A DNA stretch of 64,000 bases, from assembly GCF_012926505.1 (NCBI RefSeq), contig NZ_JABBNT010000005.1, positions 1 through 64,000 of the forward strand, written 5' to 3'. A model generated the notes under the pieces. It saw only the letters and a program-made list of their open reading frames with translations, was not told where the DNA came from and made no database searches. The stretch comes from Pacificispira spongiicola. GTDB taxonomy: Bacteria; Pseudomonadota; Alphaproteobacteria; UBA8366; Aestuariispiraceae. The position numbers were made by a program, and so were the translations under genes. Position 1 is the stretch's first letter, and every line of letters begins with the position of its first letter. Positions 1 through 5,808 of the stretch are shown here, in pieces.

Positions 1-388
1 GTCCGACCGACTCCAGCCGCGCCCGCGTGACGACTCCGTCCGCCCTCGGTGCGCTGATTGCGTGAAAGAGCATCGACGCACCGAGATGCCCAGACCGTGC
101 CATAGCGGCGACGTGGCGGGCCATGGCGGCGTCGGGCAAAACGGCGTCAAACCATAACCCGAAATCGCCGTTTAGTATCGAAACGCGGGGAGCATCGCAG
201 ACCACGAAATTTTCATGTTGCCACATCAGGGGCACGCCTGCTGTCCAAGTCCCTTTCGGAAACTGCCGGTCATAGGCACTCGCATCAAAACTTTCGGGCG
301 CGCCGTCAACGGCGATTTCTTCGTGATAAGGAACGACCAGCCCTTGAAGGTGGAGCCGCTTGCCATCGCGTCCAATCAGGTCCGACAT
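1..388 (-). CDS. HK97-family prohead maturation protease, N-terminal part (runs off edge)
   Basis: An open frame on the minus strand starts at an ATG at 388 and stays open to base 1 (about 129 residues). It begins MSDLIGRDGKRLHLQGLVVP and contains GVPLMWQHE and GLWFDAVLPD followed by GASMLF. This matches the layout of HK97-type (peptidase U35) prohead proteases: beta-strand start, catalytic His (here H58) and catalytic Ser (here S104) about 46 residues later. The third acidic residue would lie outside the window. In phages this enzyme processes the capsid protein and scaffold during head assembly. It starts 4 nt after the stop of the upstream gene, so it is probably co-translated with it. Family assignment is by motif only. 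Confidence 0.75.
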   Translation of the reverse strand, partial: MSDLIGRDGKRLHLQGLVVPYHEEIAVDGAPESFDASAYDRQFPKGTWTAGVPLMWQHENFVVCDAPRVSILNGDFGLWFDAVLPDAAMARHVAAMARSGHLGASMLFHAISAPRADGVVTRARLESVG

Positions 389-391
389 GTA

Positions 392-979
392 TTAATCCTC
401 GCGCAGAAGGCCAGCAGCGCTTGCGTACCGCATCCAGCACGAGATCGGACTCAACTCATGGGCAAGCGATCCAGCGGGCAGAAATGCGCTCACAGGCAGT
501 AGGGCACCGCCGCCGGGAACTTTGGCACGGATTTCCGCCTCTTCTTGGTTTGCGGCGTCTAGGGCTTTGAGCGCGTCTGCGATCTTGCTGACGGCAGCGC
601 GATGCGCGGGAATCAGCGTTTTGGCGATAGCGTTCGAATAGCGCTTCGCCGCTTCGCTCCGGCGCTTGCGTGCGAGTGAGGCCGCGCGCTCGATGACGAT
701 TTGTTCGGCGGCAATCTGTCGAAGTCGGGCGTCAAGATCGGCTGTGTCGATAACGTAGTTCGGATCGTCCAGGACGCCCAGCGCTGCGGTATCGAGTTCG
801 TTGAGTGCTTCGAGGTCAAGCGCCCAGCGTCGCTCTTCGAGCTTTCGACGTTCGGCGTTCAGATTGTCGCGGCGAGCGCGAACCTGATCGACCTTTCCAT
901 TTGCCTCATGAAGCGCGGCTTCGAGCGTGGCGATTTCGTCATTGGTAGCGGGGGACTTCTTGTTGCGAGTGCCAATCAT
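392..979 (-). CDS. Hypothetical coiled-coil protein of the integrative element
   Basis: A 195-aa protein starting MIGTRNKKSPATNDEIATLE. The ATG at 979 was chosen because GGAGGC lies just upstream; a longer frame from a GTG at 1024 has no such site. The sequence is rich in Ala, Arg, Glu and Leu with heptad-like spacing over roughly residues 10-65 and 90-150, so long helices or coiled coils are likely. No cysteine pairs, signal peptide or membrane segment. The C-terminal part contains a Gly/Pro/Leu stretch encoded by one copy of a 22-bp direct repeat. Its stop lies 4 nt before the prohead protease start, suggesting a role linked to head assembly (scaffold or adaptor), but no family was recognised. 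Confidence 0.65.
   Translation of the reverse strand: MIGTRNKKSPATNDEIATLEAALHEANGKVDQVRARRDNLNAERRKLEERRWALDLEALNELDTAALGVLDDPNYVIDTADLDARLRQIAAEQIVIERAASLARKRRSEAAKRYSNAIAKTLIPAHRAAVSKIADALKALDAANQEEAEIRAKVPGGGALLPVSAFLPAGSLAHELSPISCWMRYASAAGLLRED
495..516. repeat. 22-bp perfect direct repeat, copy 1
   Basis: GGCAGTAGGGCACCGCCGCC followed by GG occurs here inside the coiled-coil gene and again at 1012-1033 upstream of the same gene. The flanks differ on both sides, so the identity is confined to the 22 bp. Confidence 0.9.
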
Positions 980-1011
980 TTTCGGGCCTCCTAAAAGCTC
1001 ATGTGTTGACC

Positions 1012-1033
1012 GGCAGTAGGGCACCGCCGCCGG
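1012..1033. repeat. 22-bp perfect direct repeat, copy 2
   Basis: Second exact copy of the 22-bp sequence at 495-516, located in the spacer upstream of the coiled-coil gene. Recombination between the copies would remove about 517 bp including nearly the whole gene. Confidence 0.9.
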
Positions 1034-1138
1034 ACATGCGGCTGTCGGGTCGCGATGGACTTCCAGAATGGGGGAGCGGAAGCGAGGTCCGGCGGCGGTG
1101 TTTCTGGCCGGGAATTCCGGCGGTGTTTTGAAACTTCT

Positions 1139-3805: not shown

Positions 3806-3830
3806 GTTAAGTTTCTTCCTCGACTTAACT
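3806..3830. promoter_or_regulatory. Inverted repeat between HTH gene and AlpA-like gene
   Basis: GTTAAGT and ACTTAAC form perfect 7-bp arms separated by about 10 bp at the end of the 164-aa gene. The neighbouring sequence (3755-3805) is AT-rich (AAAAAATATTATTTATC), unlike the rest of the element. Position suggests an operator or promoter for the alpA-repA block; a terminator for the upstream gene is less likely because no T tract follows on the minus strand. Confidence 0.4.
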
Positions 3831-4319
3831 GCCTTCTTGGAACTGCTCCCACTTTTCGTACTCTTTTATAGCCCGGTTTACCGTCGACTTTGAAATTCCC
3901 ATAAAGTCGGCAACATCTTGCGCTGTGTGATCCTTAACATCCCGCCCCCACTTCTCGATGTTCTGCTTCTTAAAGTGGCGATACAAAACCGCAAGGTATT
4001 CTGGATCGTAGGTGTTCCCTTCGCGGAATACTTTGCCAAAATTTGTGAAACCAAACGCTTTGGCGACTTCCGCTGCACCGATGCCGTTAGCGCCCCAATA
4101 AGCGGATTTATGAAGCCTATCCAGTTCACCCATAGCTGCATCGAGCCAGTCGAAAACGTAAGGAGGAAGATCGTCCCCATTTTCGCGGGCGGCCCGATAT
4201 GCAGAAGCGAGCCTGAGAGGATTCTTGTCGAAAGCGTAGAGTTGCTCCTGGGTCTCTACGATTCGATCATTGCTTTTGCGACGAACCTCAGTGTCTTTCT
4301 TTTGATCGTCGCTAGGCAT
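3825..4319 (-). CDS. Hypothetical HTH-containing protein
   Basis: A 164-aa protein starting MPSDDQKKDTEVRRKSNDRI. The central part (residues about 35-110) is helical, with PPYVFDWLDAAMGELDRL. The C-terminal part has a clear helix-turn-helix, TAQDVADFMGISKSTVNRAI, resembling resolvase/Trp-repressor-type HTH segments. The gene overlaps the 3' end of the integrase gene by 8 nt and is read with it. Lower GC than its neighbours suggests a separate origin. It may be a regulator or an excision accessory factor; the family was not recognised. Confidence 0.65.
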   Translation of the reverse strand: MPSDDQKKDTEVRRKSNDRIVETQEQLYAFDKNPLRLASAYRAARENGDDLPPYVFDWLDAAMGELDRLHKSAYWGANGIGAAEVAKAFGFTNFGKVFREGNTYDPEYLAVLYRHFKKQNIEKWGRDVKDHTAQDVADFMGISKSTVNRAIKEYEKWEQFQEGS

Positions 4320-5550
4320 GCGTACTTCCTTGAATCGAAACTACGGTTCCTGATGCTTCAACCGGTCGCGCTACAAACGCCGCCCAATCCGACATCAGGC
4401 GTACCCGTTTGTCGAACAAATCGCCACGCCGATAGGCCGCTTCGACTGCGGACGGGATTGCGTGCCCGAGGGCTGCCTCAGATACCTCGTTTGGGTAACG
4501 GGTGCATTCAGACGCCCAGTCTTTGAAGGTGGATCGAAATCCGTGTGAAGTGAGGTCCGCACGCCCCATCCGTTTTAAGACCGCCAGCATCGACATGTTC
4601 GACAGCGGCGATTTGGGCCGCGCGCCCGGAAATACGAAATCAGACGACTTCAAATCTTCCATGACGCGAAGAATGGCTACCGCTCCGCCCGATAGCGGTA
4701 CGCGATGATCGGCTCCAGTCTTCGTTCGTTCACCGGGGATATTCCAGCAGGAATTAGTGAAGTCTATTTCCGACCATCGCGCGCCCAAAACTTCGCCGGT
4801 CCTCGTCCCCGTCAGGATCAGGAATTCAAGAGCCCGCGCGGCCATGCCGGGCTGCTCACGTAAGGAGGTAACGAAGGTGTTGATTTCGGGGTAGGGTAGG
4901 GCCGCATGGTGCTTTTTCGATCGCTTCGATCTCGCCGGTAGGATTTTGTTCAAATGCCCCCGCCAGCGGGCCGGGTTCTCCCCCTCGCGATGTTTCCGCG
5001 CGATGGCCCAATCAAGGATCGCTTCGATTCGTCCGCGAACACGTGATGCCGTTTCAGGCTTCTCCGACCAAATTGGCTCCAGAATATCCAGCACCTGCGG
5101 CGTGTCGACGTCTCCAACGCCAAGAGTGCCGATTACGGGATAAGCGTATGTTTCCAACGTCGCTGTCCATTGCGCCGCGTGCTTAACGTTCGACCATTTC
5201 GGCGCGTGTTGTTTGATATAGGATTCAGCGCACTGCTTGAACGTCTTGGCCGTGCCAGCCTGGGTTCGGCGATCCAGTAGGATAGCCTTCCGTTCCTCGA
5301 TCGGATCGATCCCGTCCCGGATGAGTTGGCGGCACCGTGCGGCTTCCTGGCGAGCGTCAGCGAGGGAAACAGTGTGAACCGCGCCTAGGCCCATCTGGCG
5401 TTTTCGACCGTTAAGCTGAAATCGAAAGAGCCATGACTTGTTCGCGGCCTCTCCGACCTGAAGCCACAGCCCGCCACCGTCGGAATAGCGGCCCTTGCGA
5501 GTCTCCGTCGCCACCCTGCGAGCGGCCAACTTGTTTAGAGCGCGTGCCAT
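4312..5550 (-). CDS. int: P4-type tyrosine site-specific integrase
   Basis: A 412-aa integrase from the ATG at 5550 (MARALNKLAARRVATETRKG); a TTG nine codons upstream is possible, but GGAG lies correctly before the ATG. Order of domains: DUF4102 N-terminal arm-binding domain (about 1-90), SAM-like core-binding domain (about 105-190), catalytic domain (about 210-390). Catalytic residues are visible: Arg in LTGTRTGEVLG, HGFRS, LGH, and Tyr in VEAAYRRGDLF. Such enzymes insert elements at tRNA 3' ends, and a tRNA-Ser lies 170 bp upstream of this start. It mediates integration and, with an AlpA/Xis-type factor, excision. Confidence 0.95.
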   Translation of the reverse strand: MARALNKLAARRVATETRKGRYSDGGGLWLQVGEAANKSWLFRFQLNGRKRQMGLGAVHTVSLADARQEAARCRQLIRDGIDPIEERKAILLDRRTQAGTAKTFKQCAESYIKQHAPKWSNVKHAAQWTATLETYAYPVIGTLGVGDVDTPQVLDILEPIWSEKPETASRVRGRIEAILDWAIARKHREGENPARWRGHLNKILPARSKRSKKHHAALPYPEINTFVTSLREQPGMAARALEFLILTGTRTGEVLGARWSEIDFTNSCWNIPGERTKTGADHRVPLSGGAVAILRVMEDLKSSDFVFPGARPKSPLSNMSMLAVLKRMGRADLTSHGFRSTFKDWASECTRYPNEVSEAALGHAIPSAVEAAYRRGDLFDKRVRLMSDWAAFVARPVEASGTVVSIQGSTHA

Positions 5551-5718
5551 TGTCTTTGGTCTCCAAGTGGGAATCAAATTTCATAGCCCACCTTCCAACC
5601 CACATTTTAAACGCGAATTTCAACGAACGCAAGCGAATGTGCGCGAACACGAAATGGTGTTTCATCGCTGTAATATTGGGGTTTTTGGGACGTCGACGAA
5701 CATTGGCGAATGAGCCGC

Positions 5719-5808
5719 TGGCGGACAGGGTGGGATTCGAACCCACGGTACGGTCTCCCGCACGCTGGTTTTCAAGACCAGTGCCTTAAACCACTCGGCC
5801 ACCTGTCC
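5719..5808 (-). tRNA. tRNA-Ser (anticodon TGA)
   Basis: Read on the minus strand the gene begins GGACAGGTGGCCGAGTGGTT and ends CCCTGTCCGCCA. Acceptor arms GGACAGG/CCTGTCC pair fully. The anticodon loop CTTGAAA gives anticodon TGA, decoding UCA. The long variable arm (CGTGCGGGAGACCGTACC) and the T-arm GTGGGTTCGAATCCCAC are typical of tRNA-Ser, and the CCA is encoded. Its 3' end faces the integrase gene, so the attachment core of the integrative element is expected within about 5719-5760. Confidence 0.97.

Follow-up and report, generated by a model that had tools for sequence, protein, structure and literature searches.

Capsid-forming PICIs (cf-PICIs) were reportedly described by Alqurainy et al. 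in 2023. Known satellites either remodel the capsid of their helper or carry a whole head and packaging set, the latter being the cf-PICIs, which encode all proteins for their own capsids and their packaging (PMC12409344). The cf-PICIs measure 14 kb on average, the main hosts listed for them are Enterobacteriaceae, Pasteurella and groups of the Firmicutes and not Alphaproteobacteria (PMC10803314), and some of them contain putative tmp genes (PMC12987554, Extended Data Fig. 10). Satellites with a tape-measure protein (TMP) have been known since 2026; for PLE11 of Vibrio cholerae it was found experimentally that the satellite-encoded TMP becomes part of chimeric tails, which are ~10 nm shorter (PMC12987554).

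We analysed a window of 64,000 nucleotides that starts at base 1 of contig C15 (524,294 bp) in a 4.2 Mb assembly of 19 contigs. With a probability of about two in three, positions 1-5732 of this window represent the left third of a helper-dependent phage satellite at tRNA-Ser (element A), which would have its own shell, TerS and TMP and take the motor, the portal and the tail from a helper.

Gene content and attachment site of element A

The window genes of element A, from tRNA-Ser to protease, are all located on the minus strand within 1-5808:

5719-5808, minus strand: tRNA-Ser (tga), found by ARAGORN, with the attachment site at its 3' end
5718-5732, minus strand: att core CACCCTGTCCGCCAG, with a direct-orientation copy at C12:10211-10225
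4312-5577, minus strand: tyrosine integrase, 421 aa (Pfam Arm-DNA-bind_3, Phage_int_M, Phage_integrase)
3825-4319, minus strand: HTH protein, 164 aa (HTH_23 E 1.7e-6)
3471-3743, minus strand: AlpA-like HTH_17 regulator, 90 aa (PF12728 E 3.8e-4, under the Pfam cut-off)
2775-3467, minus strand: 230-aa protein that matched no Pfam family
1628-2791, minus strand: RepA-like AAA_25 ATPase, 387 aa (PF13481 E 1e-30; PHROG primase/helicase families)
1139-1423, minus strand: 94-aa basic protein, of which one stretch also occurs in element B (see below)
392-1024, minus strand: 210-aa coiled-coil-like protein, whose counterpart in element B likewise adjoins the protease
2-388, minus strand: HK97-type prohead protease, first 129 aa (TIGR01543, Peptidase_S78), truncated by the contig start
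1-119, no strand: 119-bp assembly overlap, the same as at the opposite end of C15 and leading into a collapsed two-copy repeat

The original prediction had placed an integrase at the 3' end of tRNA-Ser, followed in one orientation by an AlpA-like regulator, a RepA-like ATPase and a prohead protease, and had anticipated a second copy of the attachment site. Both points held: ARAGORN and Pfam recovered the genes, the protease fragment with weak profile matches (TIGR01543 E 0.013, Peptidase_S78 E 0.095), and 15 bp of the tRNA-Ser 3' end recur in direct orientation at C12:10,211-10,225. The repeat is short and equals the maximum reached in a control of 400 60-mers (longest match: median 11, 99th percentile 14, maximum 15 bp). 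An empty site is found in genome G010 of the same genus, where tRNA-Ser is directly joined to sequence matching C12 from 10,211, and two other genomes of the genus (G011 and G013) have the C12 flank in synteny next to this tRNA-Ser. Judged from these sequence comparisons, the true att site of element A lies at the tRNA-Ser 3' end.

The same tRNA-Ser harbours a different element in G009 (C77:1-13200, L155, same genus), truncated by the contig start, with a 54% identical integrase, HNH and rep genes and an 847-aa protein without recognised family. Several partial copies of tRNA-Ser near the intact gene in G013 (C1:3,908,068-3,910,392, L156) suggest repeated insertions there.

A second element and the collapsed stretch

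The first 119 bases of C15 are the reverse complement of its last 119, with gradual divergence beyond, and exactly 119 bp are shared by eight pairs of contig ends. The occurrence of this length in eight pairs implies that it is the overlap used by the assembler and that each pair lies at the border of a repeat whose two copies were collapsed; since the ends of C15 overlap, the other end of the contig carries a second element (B). Both elements enter one shared collapsed stretch, to re-emerge on C12 (A) and C16 (B). Element A thus comprises window 1-5732, the hidden stretch and C12:1-10,225, and element B comprises C15:~520,070-524,294, the hidden stretch and C16:110,345-121,696; given a hidden part of ~2 kb, the size would be about 18 kb each. 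Element B begins at tRNA-Met, ~49 bp of whose 3' end is repeated at C16:110,345, and contains its own HNH and rep-type genes, a 195-aa protein and a protease. Another 24 bp from the 3' end of tRNA-Met are present at C16:109,029-109,052, 1.3 kb past the end of element B and separated from it by a 348-aa gene, and may mark a second, tandem insertion.

The protease copy of element B, 85% identical to that of A, scores better than the window fragment (TIGR01543 E 1.2e-4, Peptidase_S78 E 0.0034), and the 210-aa (A) and 195-aa (B) proteins are 65% identical. Among 385 genomes of the class only the own genome was positive for the protease, and scans with degenerate patterns (queries: protease, TMP, 210-aa protein and nuclease) recovered no relatives. 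A candidate relative of the 210-aa protein in G011 proved spurious, and the AlphaFold prediction for the protease fragment (pLDDT 40) was too poor for use.

The protease and the relatives described below lead us to expect the major capsid gene of A and B in the collapsed stretch. Contigs C3 and C5-C11 (608-2,526 bp) are all N and probably represent collapsed repeats, among them the middle part that is missing from A and B. One bridging contig would leave at most ~2.3 kb unseen, which would hold a capsid gene besides the remainder of the protease, but not TerL and portal as well; a hidden stretch that spans several contigs could also contain TerL or portal.

Genes beyond the collapsed stretch

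At the start of C12 and the end of C16 a P27/D3-type TerS was found in both elements, followed within ~30 bp by a lambda-type TMP of 684 aa (A) or 677 aa (B), as identified by PF06791 (over the cut-off) and PHROG TMP families (down to E 3e-24). Beyond the TMP both elements encode: a ~102-aa protein, two related secreted-looking proteins, on one of which a Tat signal was detected, and a secreted DNA/RNA non-specific endonuclease (PF01223). Element A contains in addition a DNA methylase with an Mrr-like part; the additions of element B are a GIY-YIG-like gene and, at the far end of the element, an integrase. The secreted nuclease (C12:8375-9118, L038; C16, L039 11317-12060) is 89% identical between A and B and, with a dN/dS of 0.08, the most constrained of the compared genes.

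The TMP of element A is 49% identical to that of a full prophage in G013 (684 vs 743 aa); the N- and C-terminal parts are close, the middle is variable and the protein is 59 aa shorter overall. The TMP ends would be the expected contact points with the tail parts of a helper. The IMG/VR loci with relatives of the TMP lacked all other satellite proteins, and TerL or portal was present in many of the larger loci; a 606-aa TMP in G283 is part of a full phage.

Profiles made from IMG/VR phage sequences (79 TerL, 42 portal) matched held-out phages strongly and gave no match in what is visible of A and B (~16 kb each) or in any whole relative element. Nor did these visible parts show lysis, fibre or tail tube genes, or any tail gene other than the TMP, and all open frames of at least 360 codons in A and B are integrase, RepA, TMP or methylase. 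A search of the own genome for TerL, performed without positive control, yielded nothing. In 78 of the 81 relatives of this TerS the next gene is TerL (median distance ~90 bp), the place taken by the TMP in A and B.

The expectation of a capsid-forming satellite that has terminase genes and lacks lysis, fibre and tape-measure genes was thus borne out in part. The bounded tRNA-Ser element, the integrase, AlpA-like regulator, RepA, protease and TerS agree with it, as does the lack of lysis and fibre genes in the visible ~16 kb of element A. Of the terminase genes only TerS was recovered, the large terminase (TerL) not being found in the visible parts, and the tape-measure gene, whose presence had been named as speaking against a satellite, is there, although satellites with a TMP are known (PMC12987554).

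Relatives with a capsid gene

The TerS search gave three exceptions to the TerS-TerL order (L205, L168 and the Ancylobacter plasmid pLGM), and the four relatives bounded by tRNA repeats (L247, L249, L258 and L259) came from capsid searches:

L205 (IMG/VR, 7.4 kb): integrase, rep, TerS, capsid, two small genes, TMP
L168 (4.4-kb fragment): ~200-aa protein, TMP, TerS, capsid
Element at 140-151 kb of Ancylobacter pratisalsi plasmid pLGM (NZ_CP048631): HTH, Ant, TerS (56%), capsid, protease, Neck1 connector, tail-type 102-aa protein, 658-aa TMP, HNH, integrase
L247, Sinorhizobium sp. K101 (tRNA-Lys, 49-bp repeat, 10.8 kb): integrase, AlpA-like, Toprim primase, AAA_25 RepA, capsid
L249 (tRNA-Ser gct, 15-bp repeat, 9.3 kb): capsid as the only recognised structural gene
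L258 (tRNA-Ser tga, 14-bp core the same as in element A): integrase (53%), P27-like TerS, capsid, 590-aa protein without recognised family
L259 (tRNA-Pro, 50-bp repeat, 11 kb): capsid as the only recognised structural gene

The Ancylobacter element is the clearest complete relative: like the visible parts of A and B it has its own protease and TMP, a TerS that is 56% identical and no TerL or portal, and it differs in its integrase, Ant regulator, gene order and size (~10 kb). The relatives that have a capsid gene and lack TerL and portal, several of them alphaproteobacterial, are read likewise as helper-dependent satellites, a reading that we hold jointly with that of element A. In a tree of capsid proteins, which has long branches and in which two satellite copies are labelled phage, the satellite capsids appear in several places among the phage capsids, a scatter that suggests repeated capture from phages. 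Whether the Alphaproteobacteria contain a recurrent class of satellites with their own head shell (sometimes with TerS, protease and TMP) and a borrowed portal and motor, whose particles would be hybrid in head and tail and whose capsids would have been captured several times, is in our judgement evenly balanced.

Selection and alternative explanations

The hidden stretch could also hold portal and TerL, in which case A and B would be complete cf-PICIs that do their own packaging and borrow only tails. Satellites of this kind are known, some with putative tmp genes, and part of A and B is hidden; nevertheless we consider it unlikely. The largest unread contig is 2,526 bp, of which the rest of the protease and the capsid gene need ~1.5 kb, so that with a single contig across the gap TerL (~1.5 kb) and portal (~1.2 kb) would not fit. 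Moreover, TerS is followed by a TMP and not by the usual TerL, and relatives that were read end to end lack TerL and portal.

The genes common to A and B have a dN/dS of 0.08-0.28 (not calculable for TerS) and all compared frames are open, which argues against decay; the shared genes are under purifying selection. Of the TerL, portal, tail and lysis genes of a complete prophage, the visible parts contain only the TMP, and A and B could be seen as two decaying prophages that have lost most head and tail genes, especially as all structural genes have phage homologues and a full prophage has a closely similar TMP. In view of the selection this is improbable, the more so because A and B keep the same few genes despite different integrases, tRNA sites and regulators, and because the same reduction occurs in other genera with intact att repeats. 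That the capsid, TerS and TMP variants are poison subunits by which an element that is not itself packaged wrecks helper assembly in defence is likewise improbable, because protease and TerS suggest head building and filling and a poison would not require both, even though satellites are known to attack phage assembly (e.g. PLE11 Rta against TMP; PMC12987554) and L249 and L259 have the capsid gene alone.

Proposed life cycle

As a helper-dependent satellite, element A would respond to infection by, or induction of, a siphophage helper with integrase-driven excision and RepA replication. It would make its own head shell, with the protease, the gene of which is present, and the presumed capsid protein; its own TerS would direct packaging and its own TMP would enter the tail. 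The helper would supply the portal, TerL motor, tail tube, tip, fibres and lysis, resulting in chimeric particles. The capsid gene in the hidden stretch, the use of a helper and the hybrid particles are what we infer. If true, a foreign portal and motor must dock on the satellite's own capsid. One could then test which interfaces of the head have to fit when its parts stem from unrelated genomes, and whether it is common for satellites to reset the length of the tail.

Comparison with known systems

Element A resembles the cf-PICIs in its integrase, AlpA-like regulator, replication gene, HK97-type head protease, TerS, tRNA site and size: the tRNA integrase with direct repeats is present, the match to the AlpA type is weak (HTH_17) and that of the replication gene strong (AAA_25). 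A and B differ from the cf-PICIs in their packaging set, of which the visible ~16 kb contain TerS and neither TerL nor portal, and the elements are therefore not filed as cf-PICIs, near which they nevertheless appear to stand. The combination of shell parts and a TMP without packaging motor or portal was not found described in the literature searched. Similar mixes may occur among the marine tycheposons and VEIMEs. The PLEs share with A and B the possession of an own TMP, that of PLE11 replacing the helper TMP in chimeric tails; PLE differs in having a tail chaperone and a baseplate hub, neither of which was found in A or B. The siphophage prophage of G013 (L048/L049, C1:~720-744 kb) is, unlike element A, a full phage with TerL, portal, capsid and tail genes, and it has a TMP related to that of element A, which makes a helper of such a type plausible.
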